From Candidatus Fermentibacterota bacterium (lineage in GTDB: Bacteria > JAFGKV01), in contig JAUXFG010000106.1 in assembly GCA_030620115.1 (NCBI GenBank), forward strand, positions 1-12,853: 12,853 nt of DNA, read 5' to 3'. The position numbers and the translations under genes were made by a program. Below the pieces are notes generated by a model. The model saw only the letters and a list, made by a program, of their open reading frames with translations. It had not been told where the DNA came from and did not search any database. This document shows, piece after piece, positions 3,250 through 12,781 of this stretch (position 1 is its first letter; each line of letters opens with the position of its first letter).

Positions 3250-4488
3250 ATGGCAAAAGTGAAACCGTTTCGAGCGTTTCGGCCACGACCCGACCTGGCG
3301 GAGAAAGTAGCCAGTCCACCCTATGACGTGCTGAACAGCGCTGAGGCACGACTCATGGCAGAGGGGAATCCTTACTCATTCCTTCACGTGGTCAAGCCGG
3401 AAATCGATCTACCTGATGGGACGGATCTCTACTCCGATGCGGTCTACGACAAGGGGAGCGAGAATCTCCAGAGACTCATTGAGGAGGGCGCCCTCGTCCG
3501 CGAAACCCGTCCTGCATTCTATCTCTACGAGCAGCAGATGGGCGACCATGTCCAGATCGGGCTAGTGGCCGGAGCCAGCGTTGATGAATACGAGAAGGAT
3601 CTCATCAGAAAGCATGAGCTCACCAGAAAGAAAAAGGAAGACGACCGGACCCGCCACGTAGAGAGCCTGAATGCCAATACAGGCCCCGTTTTTCTCACCT
3701 ACAGGGCTCGCGGGGAGATCGATGAACTCGTCGCCGAACTGAAATCTCGAACGCCGGACTATGACTTCACTGCGCCCGATGATATCCGCCATACCATGTG
3801 GGTCATTGATCAGCCGGGAGATGTCCATCGTTTGGCCAATGCCTTCGAGAGTGTTGATATCTTGTACGTAGCCGACGGCCACCACCGGAGCGCGGCGGGA
3901 ACACGCGTTCGATCCATCAGGATGGCGCAGAATCCCCATCATACTGGCGACGAACCGTATAACTTCTTCTTGAGCGTGATCTTCCCCGATGATCAGATGA
4001 TGATACTGGACTATAACCGTGTGGTGAAAGACCTAGCGGGGTTATCCGCTGAGGAGTTTCTTGCCAAGGTCAGCGAGAAGTTCAGCGTCACGGAGATCGA
4101 AAAGGAGAAACCGTCAAAGCCGCGCACCTATTCGATGTTGCTTGAGGGGAAGTGGTATGGGCTCGAGGCCAAGCCGGGCTCATTTCCGGCGGACGATCCG
4201 GTGAAGAATCTCGACGTTGCCATCCTTCAGGATAATCTTCTCGGTTCGATTCTGGGCATCGAGGATCCCAGGACTGACGAACGCATAGATTTCGTGGGAG
4301 GCATTCGCGGCCTCGATGAGCTCGAGAAGCGGCACAAGCAAGGCTGGCCACTGGCCATGGCGTGTCACCCCACAAGCATAGATCAGCTCATGGCAGTGGC
4401 CGATGCAGGGCTCACCATGCCGCCCAAATCCACATGGTTCGAACCAAAGCTCAGATCCGGCCTTATCGTCCGGCCATTAGATGAGTAG
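3250..4488 (+). CDS. DUF1015 family protein, linked to serine biosynthesis, ParB/SerK-like motif
   Basis: The 412-residue product has the usual length of DUF1015 (PF06245) proteins and their landmarks: N-terminal VKPFRAFRPRPDLAEKVASP followed by PYDVLN, NPYSFLHVVKPE, a central RKHELTRKKKEDDRTRHVE segment, and ADGHHRSAAG with DGHHR at residues 209-213. The ATG at 3250 has GGAGG 7 nt upstream. There is no signal peptide or membrane segment, so it is cytoplasmic. DUF1015 genes are often found beside serA and serC, as here, though about 690 nt containing the four-helix cassette separate them. The function is not established. The DGHHR motif resembles that of ParB-fold free serine kinases (SerK, SbnI), so a role in phosphorylating serine or handling phosphoserine is my inference. 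Family membership is fairly sure; the activity is not. Confidence 0.85.
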   Translation: MAKVKPFRAFRPRPDLAEKVASPPYDVLNSAEARLMAEGNPYSFLHVVKPEIDLPDGTDLYSDAVYDKGSENLQRLIEEGALVRETRPAFYLYEQQMGDHVQIGLVAGASVDEYEKDLIRKHELTRKKKEDDRTRHVESLNANTGPVFLTYRARGEIDELVAELKSRTPDYDFTAPDDIRHTMWVIDQPGDVHRLANAFESVDILYVADGHHRSAAGTRVRSIRMAQNPHHTGDEPYNFFLSVIFPDDQMMILDYNRVVKDLAGLSAEEFLAKVSEKFSVTEIEKEKPSKPRTYSMLLEGKWYGLEAKPGSFPADDPVKNLDVAILQDNLLGSILGIEDPRTDERIDFVGGIRGLDELEKRHKQGWPLAMACHPTSIDQLMAVADAGLTMPPKSTWFEPKLRSGLIVRPLDE

Positions 4489-4664
4489 CATCAATCGCAA
4501 CATCCCAATAGACCCAGGCATCCAATCTCCTCCCCCTTTTGGGGTCCGAGCTGACAGCAGGACACACGTAACAGCGGGGGTATGGAGAGGGGCATGAAGA
4601 GAGGAAGACGTCTTGGTTTTGGCTGAACATCGAACATTCAACATCGAACATCGAAGGAAAGAAG

Positions 4665-5090
4665 ATGACAGAACGGAAGTTTGATCTTGAGAACAGACTT
4701 CTTGAGTATGCCGCTTCGATTATTCGTTTGGTTGAGAAGATGGCGAATACCAGGGCGGCGAATCATGTTGGTGGACAACTGCTTCGGTCCAGGACCTCGC
4801 CGCTATTCAATCACGGAGAAGCCCAAGCGGCAGAATCACCAAAGGACTTTGTGCATAAGCTGCGAATCTGTCTCAAGGAGCTTCGTGAATCGAAGCGGGC
4901 GCTTCGGCTTGTCAAGAGAATGCCCTTAATAGAGGATCCTGCAGAGGTCGACCCTCTACTGCGGGAAACAGAGGAGTTGATCAATATTTTCGTTACCAGC
5001 ATTCGAACGGCGGGAAAAAACAGAGTCTGCGAGGATGGCGTTGAAGGCTACGAGGCCCAGCCGCATCCTACCTTCGATGTTCGATGTTGA
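4665..5090 (+). CDS. Four-helix-bundle protein (S23 / IVS-encoded family)
   Basis: Residues 5-120 match the four-helix-bundle family known from 23S rRNA intervening sequences (PF05635/TIGR02436): KFDLENRLLEYAASIIRLVE, then HVGGQLLRSRTSP, GEAQAAESPKDFVHKLRICL with KELRES, and a final helix ending FVTSIRTAGKNR. Four amphipathic helices are apparent. The family usually has about 120 residues; the extra tail (121-141, ending TFDVRC) is read from spacer and from the right inverted arm, where the stop codon lies. The ATG at 4665 has AAGGA 6 nt upstream, within the left arm, so the ribosome binding site would be masked once the right arm is transcribed. The biochemical role is unknown. The basic face and the relation to Avd of diversity-generating retroelements suggest nucleic-acid binding, but no reverse transcriptase or template repeat is in the window. 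Confidence 0.82.
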   Translation: MTERKFDLENRLLEYAASIIRLVEKMANTRAANHVGGQLLRSRTSPLFNHGEAQAAESPKDFVHKLRICLKELRESKRALRLVKRMPLIEDPAEVDPLLRETEELINIFVTSIRTAGKNRVCEDGVEGYEAQPHPTFDVRC

Positions 5091-5095
5091 ATGTT

Positions 5096-5111
5096 TCCGC
5101 CAGCGGGCGGA
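5096..5111. repeat. Small palindrome (TCCGCC type) interrupting the right arm of the cassette
   Basis: TCCGCC-AGCG-GGCGGA differs by one base from the palindrome TCCGCCAGCTGGCGGA in repeat copy 1 (1685-1700). With TT at 5112-5113 it forms an 18-nt block whose removal restores the heptad register and extends the inverted repeat. This looks like an insertion of a minimal palindromic unit into the older heptad arm. Confidence 0.65.
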
Positions 5112-5137
5112 TTCGATGTTACAAACAACCGCGTTTC

Positions 5138-5173: not shown

Positions 5174-6049
5174 ATGAAGATTCTCATCAGCGATGCATTT
5201 GACAAATCACTTCCGCAGAAACTCGCTCGGTTTGGGGAGGTTACGGACGATAAGTCTCAGCTCCCTGAATCCAATGTAGTGCTCGTTCGGAGCAAGACGA
5301 AGTGTACCAAGGAATACATCGATGGTGCTCCCAATCTCAAGCTCATCATCCGGGGCGGAGTAGGAATCGATAATATCGACGTCGAATACGCGAAATCAAA
5401 AGGCATCCAGGTTAACAACACGCCGGCAGCCTCCAGCATTGCGGTGGGTGAACTGGCCATGGCCATGATCGCGGCCATCCCCAACCGCATCATCGAAGGC
5501 CACACCACCATGTTGCAGGGGCGTTGGGCCAAGAAGGAATTGAAACGTTCCGAGCTCTATGGCAAGACCTTGGGCCTCATTGGCGCCGGCCGCATCGCCA
5601 TGGAAGTCGCCAAGCGCGCTAATGCCTTCGGCATGGAGGTCATTGCGTATGATCCCTACTTGACCGAGGTGGACCACGCCACCCTCGTGCCGTTGGATGA
5701 AATGCTCGGCAAAGCTGATATCATCTCACTACACACTCCCGTCACCCCTGAAACCAAGGGCATGATGAACGCCGAGATGATCGCGAAGATGAAAGACGGC
5801 GTGATCATTGTGAACACCGCCAGAGGCAAGATCGTCAATGAGCAGGACCTGGTAGTGGCATTGCGCGAAGGCAAGGTCAGAGCCTACGGCACCGATGTCT
5901 GGTTCAGTGATCCCCCGCCCGAGGACTGCCCGCTGCTCACGGCCCCCAACGTGTTCATGACCCCCCACATCGGAGCGCAAAGCAAAGAGAATCTGCTCCG
6001 TATCGGTGACGAGGTGGAGCGAATCATCGGCGAGTTCACGAAGAAGTAA
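5174..6049 (+). CDS. serA: D-3-phosphoglycerate dehydrogenase-like D-2-hydroxyacid dehydrogenase, short form
   Basis: This cytoplasmic NAD-dependent enzyme oxidises 3-phosphoglycerate to 3-phosphohydroxypyruvate, step 1 of serine synthesis. The ATG at 5174 (291 aa) is set by AGGAGG 5 nt upstream; the frame is open to 5084, but those 30 codons are cassette and leader sequence. Visible: RGGVGIDNID (60-69), the Rossmann segment GLIGAGRIAMEVA with GAGRIA at 137-142 (Ala for the last Gly), Asp160 for NAD ribose, catalytic Arg217 in TARGKIV, and His265 in TPHIGA. In DVWFSDPPPE the position of the usual catalytic Glu appears to hold Asp246. There is no ACT or ASB regulatory domain, so serine feedback of the E. 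coli kind is not expected. The assignment to serA rather than another hydroxyacid dehydrogenase rests on serC 22 nt downstream. Confidence 0.9.
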   Translation: MKILISDAFDKSLPQKLARFGEVTDDKSQLPESNVVLVRSKTKCTKEYIDGAPNLKLIIRGGVGIDNIDVEYAKSKGIQVNNTPAASSIAVGELAMAMIAAIPNRIIEGHTTMLQGRWAKKELKRSELYGKTLGLIGAGRIAMEVAKRANAFGMEVIAYDPYLTEVDHATLVPLDEMLGKADIISLHTPVTPETKGMMNAEMIAKMKDGVIIVNTARGKIVNEQDLVVALREGKVRAYGTDVWFSDPPPEDCPLLTAPNVFMTPHIGAQSKENLLRIGDEVERIIGEFTKK

Positions 6050-8998: not shown

Positions 8999-9050
8999 TT
9001 CCTTTTCACCTCAACTGTACATATTCCTGATCCATTCGATCCTATGGGAT

Positions 9051-9079
9051 AGTGTATGCCGGAAATGCAACATAGTCAA
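9051..9079 (-). promoter_or_regulatory. Sigma-70-like promoter of the GNAT gene
   Basis: On the minus strand TTGACT (9074-9079, 5 of 6 consensus bases) and TACACT (9051-9056, 4 of 6) are separated by exactly 17 nt. Transcription would start near 9044, leaving a leader of about 46 nt before the ATG at 8998. It lies just outside the left end of repeat copy 2. Confidence 0.5.
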
Positions 9080-9090
9080 TCCGGAGGTAT

Positions 9091-9303
9091 CTTTGGAGTG
9101 CGATGCTTGCGCTTTGTTCTGCGCGAGCCATGCTTCCGCGATGAGTCCTCATTGCCGACTGTTCGATGGGGAATCCCGCGCAGTACGCGGGACTCGGGAA
9201 AAGCGGTAGCCCCGCGCAGTACGCGGGGCTACCGCACTCCAAAGGGGGAAAACGGTGTTATCTCACCGGGTAGCGTATTCGTCCGTCACATCAACGCTTC
9301 TTG
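9091..9303. repeat. Nested-palindrome dispersed repeat, copy 2
   Basis: The core 9091-9244 is bounded by the 12-bp inverted repeat CTTTGGAGTGCG and CGCACTCCAAAG. It contains TCCCGCG-CAGTA-CGCGGGA at 9174-9192 and the 14-bp stem with CAGTA loop at 9203-9235, both identical to copy 1 (1624-1876). It lacks the TCCGCC-type palindrome of copy 1. Homology continues beyond the right inverted repeat to 9303, through the start of the next gene. There is no coding capacity of its own. Together with the short promoter region it fills the gap between the GNAT gene and the TMTC-like gene. Confidence 0.8.
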
Positions 9304-11036
9304 GTCTGTTGGTCTTCTCGCTCTTGCTCAACTGGAACAATATCCACAACGAGCTTGTGTACGATGACCACGAAGCCATCACGAACAATGAGAACGCCCA
9401 CGGTATTGCGAACACGAAGCGCATATTCACCACGCCATCGTGGTGGTCGTCATCCGTCACCTATGTCCGGCACTACCGCCCCCTCACTACATGGACATAT
9501 GCGCTGAATTACTCACTTCATGGGCTCAGTGCCGAAGGGTATCATCTGGTCAACAATACCCTCCATGGGCTCGTTTCCGGTCTTGTCTATCTCGTGCTGA
9601 CCGCCAGTGGGATGGGTGCTGCCCCCGCATTGATCGCTGCCGGCTTCTTTCTCGCGCACCCGGTTCATGTGGAGGCGGTCAACTGGGCCAACTGCAGGGC
9701 CGATATTCTTGCCGGAGGCTTCATTCTTCTTTCCCTGCTTCTTCACATCAGGGTGACTCACTCGTCGACGCGGGGGAAACGAGCATTGTTCATCACTGCG
9801 GGTCTGTTGAGCTTCATCCTGGCCGGGCTATCCAAGGAAACAGGCTTCATGGCGCCGTTCGTGATTTTGGCCTGGGACCTGATCATGCATGATGGCGGGG
9901 ACTTCCGGAGGAGTTGGGCTCGTCTCAAGACAGGAGCCTGGAAGGAGCACTGTCTTTACTTCTTGATCCTGGCGATCTTCATTTGGAGCAGGGCCCAGTT
10001 TGTGGGAGGTGCAGCAGAAGCCACCGTGTCCAAGATGGCATCTCCACTGGGTGCGGCGGGATTCCTTGAGCGGCTCCACACAGGGAGCTACGTAATCGCC
10101 CGCTACGTGTGGCTTCTGGTCTGGCCCGCGAAGCTCTCCGTGGATTACTCGCCGAATGAGATCACGCTGGTGACTTCCGGGGAGGATCCCCGCGCGCTCC
10201 TGGGCCTTGGTCTCATCCTGGCATATGCAGCGGCTATTGCGCTCATGGTCAAACGGAGCCGGGTCACGTCTTTCTCCCTGGCGGCAGCAGCCATCATCCT
10301 GGCGCCTGGAGCCAATATCTTCTTCCCCGTTGGCACCATCATGGCTGAACGCTTGATGTATCTGCCCGTGTTGGCGCTTTGTGTGCCACTTGCGCTGGCG
10401 ATCTGGCACGGTAATCAGCGCCTCAAGCGAGCAGGCCTTACACTCATTCTGATCCTTCTTGTGCTCATTGGCTACAGCGCCCGAACCGTCCTACGTAACA
10501 AAGATTGGAAAAATGAGGAGACGCTCTTCAGGACGGCTCTCGCCGCCTCCCCCCGAAGCGCCATGGCACATAAGAACCTCGCATCGGTCCTTCATCAGAA
10601 AGGCATGTACGACCAAGCAATCCCGTTGGCGGAGCGAGCAATCGAGATACTCCCCAAATTTCCGGACGCGCACCTCGTGTTGGGGAACTGCTACTTCATG
10701 AAAGGTCGATGGGCCGAGGCGGAAACCGCATACCGAAACACCCTAAGCCTGGTACCAGACCACGCTTCAGCCCATCTCAACCTGGGAGCCGCGTATCACG
10801 TGACAGGTCATTTCCCTGAAGCGCTGGCCATGTTCAACAAGGCAATCAGCCTCGACCCCCGTCTGGATCTCGCCTGGTTCAATCGCGTCCATACCCTGGT
10901 TGCTCTCTATCGCCTGGATGAGGCAAAAATGGCGCTGGAGGCAGCCACGCAGCGATTCCCCGATCATCCCGCCGCACCAGACGCCAGAGCCAAAATCGAA
11001 AGGGCGCGGCTCACCAACATGAAATCTGGATCATAG
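9255..11036 (+). CDS. TMTC-like GT-C membrane glycosyltransferase with C-terminal TPRs
   Basis: This 593-residue polytopic membrane protein resembles TMTC / PMT-type GT-C glycosyltransferases that use lipid-linked sugars. Helix 1 is at about 14-30, followed by YDDHEAI with the Asp37-Asp38 pair in the first external loop, the usual catalytic site. Then come YRPLTTWTYALNY (74-86), HLVN, HPVHVEAVNW and CRADIL (135-152), about ten more hydrophobic segments to residue 411, and RLMYLP (366-371). Residues 435-570 form about four TPRs (NLASVLHQKGMYDQAI, LVLGNCYFMKGRWAEAE, LNLGAAYHVTGHFPEA). The GTG at 9255 has GGGGG 6 nt upstream; no later start keeps helix 1. That start, its ribosome site and about 16 codons lie in repeat copy 2. 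The acceptor and sugar are unknown. It is monocistronic, convergent with abiEii. Confidence 0.85.
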   Translation: MLSHRVAYSSVTSTLLGLLVFSLLLNWNNIHNELVYDDHEAITNNENAHGIANTKRIFTTPSWWSSSVTYVRHYRPLTTWTYALNYSLHGLSAEGYHLVNNTLHGLVSGLVYLVLTASGMGAAPALIAAGFFLAHPVHVEAVNWANCRADILAGGFILLSLLLHIRVTHSSTRGKRALFITAGLLSFILAGLSKETGFMAPFVILAWDLIMHDGGDFRRSWARLKTGAWKEHCLYFLILAIFIWSRAQFVGGAAEATVSKMASPLGAAGFLERLHTGSYVIARYVWLLVWPAKLSVDYSPNEITLVTSGEDPRALLGLGLILAYAAAIALMVKRSRVTSFSLAAAAIILAPGANIFFPVGTIMAERLMYLPVLALCVPLALAIWHGNQRLKRAGLTLILILLVLIGYSARTVLRNKDWKNEETLFRTALAASPRSAMAHKNLASVLHQKGMYDQAIPLAERAIEILPKFPDAHLVLGNCYFMKGRWAEAETAYRNTLSLVPDHASAHLNLGAAYHVTGHFPEALAMFNKAISLDPRLDLAWFNRVHTLVALYRLDEAKMALEAATQRFPDHPAAPDARAKIERARLTNMKSGS

Positions 11037-11096: not shown

Positions 11097-11855
11097 TCAC
11101 AATGTGCGCAGCTTCTCGACTCCTCGAACCGCCTCCTCATACTCCACGAACTGTGGCAAGAGCGGCCTCAAGTCACGTTGCCAATCTCTGCTGACTCGGG
11201 TCAGTGCGTTGTCGAGGGTATCGAGTCCAAAAGCCATATCATACATCGCCAGCTTACGATCAAGGAGCTGTCTATCTGGTGTCACTCCTTGCCTGAGTAT
11301 CAGCCAGACGTCAAATAGGTCCCGAGGCTTACTTCGAACCAAAAGAGCACGGATCTTCTCCGCCAGCAGGTGCTCGGGCGTCAGCACCGTGACCACAAAG
11401 GGCCTCAGGTCATCGAACTCCGATGTCACCAGTTCTCGCCGTGTTTCCACCACCTCAGATCGACGATTGATATCTACGCGTACTTTCCCCTTGCTGCGCT
11501 CCCGCCCATCATGGAGCGGCCCCCGATAGCTCACATCGAAGCTGTAGCCCATTTGTGACTCCCACTCATTCCGCACCTCAGCCTGGCCCCCGAAACGGGC
11601 TACCTCATCAGCAATCCGATGCCACAGGTTGCGCAAGACCTCCACATCAACTAGACTGTTGAAATCAAGGTCTTCGGAGTACCGACTCCCTTGGTAAACC
11701 AGCCGCAACGCGGTTCCCCCTTTGAAGACCAGTGATTGTGATCGGGCGAAGAGCAAGAACAGAAGCATGTGCTGTATATATTCCCTCTCCTGAACCTGCA
11801 TGCTAATGTGATTCCGCTGTGCCAGCCGCTGAATCTGTGTACGCGTCAACATCAT
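11097..11855 (-). CDS. abiEii: AbiEii-type nucleotidyltransferase toxin (type IV TA / abortive infection)
   Basis: The 252-residue product has the layout of AbiEii/MNT-type nucleotidyltransferases (PF08843): FKGGTALRLVYQGSRYSEDLDF, with GG at 46-47 and the metal-binding D62 and D64 in SEDLDF; RVDINRR with D128; and EHLLAEKIRALL with SKPRDLFDVW at 161-184 (K167, R178, D179, D182). AbiEii transfers nucleotides to targets such as tRNA and arrests growth, giving phage resistance. The ATG at 11855 overlaps the abiEi stop as ATGA, with AAGGAG 4 nt upstream; a second ATG at 11852 is equally possible. The further upstream frame (to 11909) lies within abiEi and is rejected. Key residues appear intact, so the toxin is probably active. 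It is convergent with the TMTC-like gene, 60 nt away. Confidence 0.88.
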   Translation of the reverse strand: MMLTRTQIQRLAQRNHISMQVQEREYIQHMLLFLLFARSQSLVFKGGTALRLVYQGSRYSEDLDFNSLVDVEVLRNLWHRIADEVARFGGQAEVRNEWESQMGYSFDVSYRGPLHDGRERSKGKVRVDINRRSEVVETRRELVTSEFDDLRPFVVTVLTPEHLLAEKIRALLVRSKPRDLFDVWLILRQGVTPDRQLLDRKLAMYDMAFGLDTLDNALTRVSRDWQRDLRPLLPQFVEYEEAVRGVEKLRTL

Positions 11856-12625
11856 CCTACTCCTTGGGGGAACAGTTCCTTTTCCGTCATGTTGACGACC
11901 AATCGCCACCGAGAGTCAACGGTGCCACTTCGTGGTCGGGAAGGATCAAGTTTGATGGGAGTGGTTGAACAGATTAGCCCATGAACGGGATGACCTAGTG
12001 TCTCCAATAGATAGCCAAGCCGCGAACCCAGACTCCTGTCTCCCATTCTATTGGCGTATTCTATCAGGGTCGGCATATCCGTGACCTCCAACGCTGTCCG
12101 CAGAGCTTTGGCTATCTCACCAATCCCGCCGGCATAGCGAGGCTGCTGGAGGCTGTCCACGATAGCTTTTTCTTCATCTGCAATGACTACAGGGAGCTCA
12201 CCCACCATTTCTCGTCGATAGCCAAAAAATTTCCGGGGTTGTACGCTCACGAAACGGAAACGGAAACCATGGAAGACCACAGGACGCTTTTTCTTGGTTG
12301 TGGCCACGAATATGGTGAAGGGCACCTGCTCGGTGAAGCCGTAGAAATGAAGCGCCGACCAGTAGGAGACGTAGCCTGGGGTGACCAATTGGCCGGCAAT
12401 AAAAAGCGGGTTTGCCAGCACACGTTCCGGTTCCAGTCCCAGAAGCATGTACTTGCCCTTTTCCACTTCTGCGATCAGCTCGCTCTGCTTGAGCCGCGCG
12501 ATCAAACGATAGGCGCGGGCGAGATCCATCCCAAAGAGGGCGGAGAGCAAACCAGGAGTGAAATAGAACAGCTCTTGTTGACGAAGTTGTTGTGCAATAG
12601 AAATCGGGGTGAGATTTCGTTTCAT
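11852..12625 (-). CDS. abiEi: AbiEi-type antitoxin with N-terminal winged helix
   Basis: The product of 257 residues begins MKRNLTPISI at the ATG at 12625, with AAAGGAA about 9 nt upstream. The ATG at 12652 would sit right at the predicted transcription start and lacks a normal leader. Residues 1-62 form a winged helix-turn-helix (FTPGLLSALFGMDLARAYRLIARL, then a wing ending EKGKYMLLG). The AbiEi signature VSYWSALHFYGFTEQVP is at 86-102, followed by the beta-rich region FVATTKKKRPVVFHGFRFRF and ADEEKAIVDSLQQPRYAGG. AbiEi represses its own operon and neutralises AbiEii without forming a complex (type IV). The 4-nt overlap with abiEii implies translational coupling. Confidence 0.86.
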   Translation of the reverse strand: MKRNLTPISIAQQLRQQELFYFTPGLLSALFGMDLARAYRLIARLKQSELIAEVEKGKYMLLGLEPERVLANPLFIAGQLVTPGYVSYWSALHFYGFTEQVPFTIFVATTKKKRPVVFHGFRFRFVSVQPRKFFGYRREMVGELPVVIADEEKAIVDSLQQPRYAGGIGEIAKALRTALEVTDMPTLIEYANRMGDRSLGSRLGYLLETLGHPVHGLICSTTPIKLDPSRPRSGTVDSRWRLVVNMTEKELFPQGVG

Positions 12626-12661
12626 TTCGAAGAATTCCTTTCTCGATTTCATTCCCCAGTG

Positions 12662-12690
12662 ATGATAACATCTGGTCACAGGATGTGCAA
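12662..12690 (-). promoter_or_regulatory. Promoter of the abiEi-abiEii operon
   Basis: On the minus strand TATCAT (12662-12667, 5 of 6) lies 17 nt from TTGCAC (12685-12690, first three bases of TTGACA). Transcription would start near 12655, giving a leader of about 30 nt to the ATG at 12625. The -10 lies in CCAG...CTGG partial symmetry, a possible site for AbiEi autorepression. Confidence 0.45.
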
Positions 12691-12781
12691 CTAAGGATAT
12701 CCCCGACTTGCGGACTGCCACAAGGAGAGGGGAAGTCAGGCAGATGAATGATGAATAGAGATCCTTTGTTTCTTTCAGTCG

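Follow-up and report, generated by a model that had tools for sequence, protein, structure and literature searches.

The window, i.e. the whole stretch of 12,853 nucleotides analysed here, is located on contig C150 of genome G000, a 4.1-Mb assembly in 296 contigs. Within it, GAACATC heptads make up a perfect 25-bp inverted repeat (4633-4657/5071-5095), which encloses a gene encoding an S23/IVP four-helix-bundle protein (4665-5090). The neighbouring genes, which we take to be DUF1015 on the left and serA-serC on the right, were named by protein recognition. The features of the region are as follows:

3250-4488, plus strand: left neighbour, a DUF1015 gene; in the family-mate G002, its stop and serA are 22 nt apart
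4625-4657, plus strand: left arm, tandem GAACATC-type heptads (GAACATC GAACATT CAACATC GAACATC GAAGG), with the inverted core at 4633-4657
4665-5090, plus strand: S23/23S_rRNA_IVP gene, 141 aa, its C-terminus and stop encoded by the right arm
5071-5095, minus strand: right arm, inverted heptads, complement of 4633-4657
5096-5111, no strand assigned: palindrome TCCGCCAGCGGGCGGA, which lies within the right heptad tract and belongs to another dispersed repeat of G000 (about 200 sites)
5112-5120, minus strand: remnant, TTCGATGTT, of the right heptad tract on the far side of the palindrome
5174-6049, plus strand: serA-type dehydrogenase gene, right neighbour

The perfect core of the arms (locus L001) is AACATTCAACATCGAACATCGAAGG, at 4633-4657 on the left and 5071-5095 on the right; with a 93% match, the arms extend to 4633-4662 and 5066-5095. 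The left tract (4625-4655) holds 4.4 copies of GAACATC and the right tract runs in the opposite orientation, with the S23 stop codon (5088-5090) falling within the right arm. When folded as RNA, the arms form one long 25-bp stem (z = -6.9). The perfect repeat around an S23/IVS gene had been described in an earlier note, made from the sequence alone, and is confirmed here. The same note had placed the gene between DUF1015 and serA with no rRNA nearby, and this is borne out: no Rfam family was matched anywhere in the window, and rRNA is therefore absent from it. The palindrome at 5096-5111, TCCGCCAGCNGGCGGA, is repeatedly observed inside or directly beside heptad tracts (also at L203 and L018), as if inserting there.

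In profile searches, the enclosed protein passes the cut-offs of both PF05635 (38.1 vs 33.8 bits, 2e-9) and TIGR02436 (71 vs 24 bits, 8.5e-20). Its AlphaFold2 model is an S23 four-helix bundle which matches 2RLD and 2GSC, the latter being the structure of the Xanthomonas S23 protein XCC0516. The fold is also common to Avd (4DWL, with a TM score of 0.82 on the target, and 8UB7), at low sequence identity. S23 proteins are under purifying selection, with a dN/dS of about 0.1-0.15: dN is 0.17 and dS 1.7 between the window protein and its closest homologue, and the cyanobacterial copies compared among themselves yield 0.09-0.15 and 0.9-1.2, respectively. The S23 gene is the sole ORF between the arms, where neither the ORF list nor family profiles reveal a transposase or recombinase. 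To our knowledge, the S23 protein itself has no recognisable nuclease or known transposase motif.

S23 loci were gathered from genomes of about 40 families, 45 of them usable, and arms were defined as strong when the inverted-repeat score between a locus's own flanks was at least 14. Strong inverted arms were found at 32 of 45 S23 loci, compared with 1 of 184 control ORFs and 4 of 675 mispaired flanks (Fisher p about 1e-27 for S23 loci vs control ORFs). When the set was enlarged, 54 of 85 loci passed and 31 were without a strong inverted repeat. The arms consist of tandem repeats with a period of 7 in most cases, and 8 or 9 otherwise. Among loci with strong tandem repeats in both flanks, the period is the same in both arms at 37 of 38, and the unit is also the same in both arms of a locus. 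Read in the sense of the gene, the left arm is G-rich at 44 of 54 loci (p about 3e-6). Heptad arms are specific to S23 genes and are a general plan of the family.

Arm units vary between loci, even within one genome, and are common to close homologues across phyla. About 0.5-1% of protein pairs share a unit at less than 50% identity, 35% at 60-70% and 71% above 70%, a co-inheritance signal which comes partly from a single subfamily, the window's own. That subfamily keeps a (G/C)AAC(A/G)T(T/C) heptad in records from Lentisphaerales, Kiritimatiellae and Planctomycetota and in a lake bin, at 59-73% identity; arms of the same type accompany a partial match from Desulfobacteraceae, 49% identical to the window S23 protein. 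Similarly, AGAAG(A/T)C-type arms are found at a Trichormus plasmid gene and at a gene of a second genome (65% identical), and TTAGCTN arms at genes of a Calothrix plasmid and of genome G057 (61% identical). As unit and protein are inherited together, the S23 protein probably recognises its own heptad arms. The earlier note, which also suggested that the arms may serve as recognition sites, had proposed to look for recurring arms in relatives; they recur in homologues from other phyla with the same heptads, and the layout recurs family-wide.

Empty sites, which that note had also proposed to seek, were found as well, one of them with precise junctions. The window site is empty and free of heptads in the family-mate G002, where the DUF1015 stop and the serA start are 22 nt apart; G001 keeps the DUF1015-serA gene order. 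On plasmids of Nostocales and other cyanobacteria, S23 genes lie between the genes of tightly packed operons, examples being nrdB/nrdA, cas10/cmr3 and an integrase operon. Four cyanobacterial relatives are empty and heptad-free at the integrase-operon site, where the insertion in NIES-22 is clear, its exact ends being masked by intergenic divergence. A site in a conjugation operon is filled in two Trichormus plasmids and one Scytonema plasmid and empty in four others, about 97% identical. The empty allele reads AAAAAGTAATTAACAAAT, and the filled allele reads AAAAAGTAAT, then arm, gene and arm, then GTAATTAACAAAT. GTAAT flanks the Trichormus insert on both sides, an apparent 5-bp duplication, and the upstream gene is intact because the repeated GTAAT holds its stop codon. 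At a second site, in Nostoc, a TTCTA repeat fits against a more diverged empty allele; at a third, also in Nostoc, relatives are empty and the repeat is ambiguous. Direct repeats just outside the arms show no excess across about 51 S23 loci, indicating that target duplication is either not general or quickly lost, and we consider target-site duplication by the element to be tentative. Other sites are less clear: the cas6-cas4 pair (Anabaena 90 vs Dolichospermum, 98.8%) does not provide a clean empty site, since the other allele has a different insert, and the TraM and cas10-cmr3 sites are too rearranged for junctions to be placed. The S23-free cas6-cas4 gap of the Dolichospermum plasmid (L138, about 1210-1460) holds an insert of another kind, with GTTGGGTT inverted repeats.

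The element is also present at more than one site and in various states of decay. Three cyanobacterial elements with one arm unit, whose proteins are 79-84% identical, occupy three sites that are non-homologous except for short shared repeats. The Trichormus and Scytonema copies are near-identical except that their arm lengths differ, and in one plasmid the conjugation-operon site retains the left arm and a truncated gene only. Two S23 copies in genome G031 match at 98% over 259 bp, and the genome also has a gene-less derivative of about 180 bp which shares both ends of the element. In G000, two decayed S23 fragments lie between inverted GAACATC arms, on contigs C184 and C17. Sites that lack the insert in relatives have acquired gene and arms jointly; the S23 element multiplies to unrelated sites and leaves truncated and gene-less derivatives. 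These empty sites, and the same element at unrelated sites, support the earlier suggestion of a free-living, IVS-like mobile element. A search of viral contigs with one S23 protein gave no match. One S23 copy of G031, at L211 (3727-4697), has an inverted repeat that does not stop at the end of the heptads but continues into flanking sequence (GGCTTGGG...CCCAAGCC), a hint that template switching may lengthen the arms.

What had been missed in the earlier note is that the heptad is dispersed genome-wide, most sampled copies being solitary and gene-less. Allowing at most one mismatch, GAACATCGAACAT has 264 matches in G000 vs 2 for the reversed control, with about 5 expected under a uniform model; the GAACATC arms are therefore not the product of chance. 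S23 genes number one each by PF05635 and TIGR02436 in this genome. The tracts sampled in G000 are mostly solitary runs of 2-5 heptads with few inverted pairs, and at most of them neither a partner arm nor an S23 remnant was seen. We rejected the notion that the dispersed tracts of G000 are mostly paired, MITE-like hairpins, since most of those sampled are solitary. The earlier note had held that arms occurring independently of the gene would refute its reading. Gene-less heptad tracts do exist, and to that extent the objection stands to the letter, but they are partly relics: several have truncated S23 fragments inside or are gene-less derivatives. Tracts of AATCTGG, AACGCTC and CCATTAG heptad-like families adjoin GAACATC tracts at L002-L031 in G000, and several independent families may be present there.

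Five arm units were searched in the same 24 genomes by whole-genome counts. Each of the five is enriched in the genome it comes from and rare in the other 23: GAACATC has 209 matches in G000, 13 and 15 in family-mates and at most 4 elsewhere; AGAAGAC has 30 in G031 and at most 5 elsewhere; GGTTACA has 202 in G066 and at most 5 elsewhere; and GGTTAGC has 15 in G045 and at most 2 elsewhere. The fifth, an 8-mer unit of G143, has 5 matches, all at the S23 locus of that genome. Arm units are thus dispersed through their own genome in four of five cases, and the confinement of the G143 unit to its S23 locus indicates that arms need not spread. The sampled stretches of S23-free genomes contain almost no 7-9-mer tracts; the greater heptad density seen in S23-bearing genomes is biased, as the stretches lie around S23 genes, and the whole-genome counts are the better evidence.

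We consider it likely that the arms and gene of the window represent one copy of a small mobile element, about 0.5 kb long, in which the S23/IVP gene lies between a heptad arm and an inverted heptad arm. Its nature is most likely that of an IVS-like selfish element residing outside rRNA. In the mechanism we propose, the S23 protein would read its own arm sequence, either as DNA or as an RNA stem. The stem may make the insert tolerable in transcripts, by rendering it excisable or by its placement at the stop/start junctions of operons, as in rRNA IVSs. Strand transfer might be lent by an enzyme of the host or of another element, possibly via RNA. Such a borrowed enzyme is our leading guess because S23 shares its four-helix-bundle fold with Avd, the partner of reverse transcriptase in diversity-generating retroelements; within the ORF lists, no reverse transcriptase and no template or variable repeats were seen beside S23 genes. 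The solitary dispersed tracts, most of those sampled being without an S23 remnant, may be relics or by-products of the S23 system. More broadly, and with somewhat less than even confidence, we suggest that S23/IVP elements could form a separate class of mobile element, transposase-less, with 7- or 8-bp array ends read by their own protein and an enzyme acting in trans, possibly a reverse transcriptase. The rRNA IVSs would then be one niche of this class and the dispersed heptads its footprints.

Other explanations must be weighed against a mobile element of this kind. The tracts could be independent host repeats born of slippage, into or between which S23 genes recombine. In favour of this, they far outnumber S23 genes in G000 and are mostly solitary, and an excess of heptameric repeats is known from many genomes (PMC4692102). 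Yet heptads are absent from the empty sites, so the arms come with the gene; the two arms run in inverted orientation and agree in both period and unit; the unit tracks the protein across phyla; and the stretches sampled from S23-free genomes are almost devoid of 7-9-mer tracts. Together, these observations make a host origin of the arms unlikely.

We find it more improbable that S23 is an immobile resident gene with a regulatory stem-loop (a terminator, an RNase III site or an autoregulatory mRNA structure), the protein binding the stem of its own mRNA. The strength of the RNA stem, the purifying selection on the protein, the G-richness of the left arm in gene sense (44 of 54 loci) and the Avd-like fold would all suit such a gene, but its sporadic distribution and the empty sites would not, nor would the same element at unrelated sites and its decayed and gene-less copies. 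Autoregulation could in any case be compatible with mobility of the element. Slighter still is the probability that quasi-palindrome template switching, at insert sites where replication forks stall, produced the arms as a by-product, with the S23 protein uninvolved. It would be in line with the matching of left and right arms at each locus, with the inverted repeat of one G031 copy that runs on into the flanks and with the variation in arm length between the near-identical Trichormus and Scytonema copies. However, control ORFs from the same loci are without such arms, and unit and protein stay linked across large distances and at different sites.

Among the closest known systems to the mobile element proposed here is the 23S IVS of Coxiella burnetii. 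There, a terminal inverted repeat of about 28 bp holds the S23p gene in its loop, and the 5' arm contains tandem GACAGAT heptamers of strain-variable copy number; the authors of that study call it a selfish element (PMC4990558). As in a 23S rRNA IVS, the terminal inverted repeat of the window element closes a stem around an S23p ORF; unlike an IVS, which occupies a 23S helix and is removed from the rRNA by RNase III, it lies between protein genes and is therefore not one. It also goes beyond the Coxiella case in that heptad arms are here a rule of the family, empty sites exist and the unit goes with the protein. Empty sites and multiple sites are shared with insertion sequences and autonomous transposons, but no transposase is present and the element is thus not an IS. 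REP/RAYT systems comprise a REP-associated tyrosine (Y1) transposase and REP hairpins with a conserved tetranucleotide. As in these systems and in REPINs, a gene is bounded by a repeat that is dispersed in the genome and whose type follows the protein lineage; unlike them, the gene is S23/IVP and not a Y1 transposase, and the arms are tandem heptads and not REP hairpins.

Dispersed heptads have been known in cyanobacteria for decades. The available text of two reports describes STRR repeats in Calothrix and Nostoc, GGGAATC in Xanthomonas, with 70-75 close inverted pairs (PMC4692102), and TAACTGA in Beggiatoaceae, and in that text assigns no protein-coding partner to heptanucleotide repeats (PMC4692102, PMC4679880). 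The GAACATC repeats of G000 resemble STRR repeats in being dispersed, intergenic tandem 7-mers with a genome-specific unit, and differ from those reports in that the S23 gene is here proposed as the protein partner. In our search of the non-subscription literature, no link between S23 and heptads was found beyond the single Coxiella case.

If our proposal is true, it would give one testable answer to two puzzles: the function of S23/IVP and the origin of heptanucleotide repeats in cyanobacteria, in Xanthomonas and in many uncultured bacteria. The S23/IVP gene, previously known mainly from rRNA insertions, would then lie at the heart of a mobile element that is widespread and has mirror-image heptad ends. 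Each arm family provides a ready binding prediction, in which protein X should prefer heptad X. Filled, empty and decayed alleles are available at the sites on cyanobacterial plasmids.

Elsewhere in the window, two intergenic stretches (about 1525-1931 and 9042-9367) contain the same odd peptide repeat in mechanical ORFs (SPAYCAGLP and SPAQYAGLP), pointing to a second dispersed DNA repeat that occurs twice in the window. On the minus strand at 11097-12721, two adjoining ORFs resemble what we take to be an AbiEii/AbiEi-type toxin-antitoxin pair.
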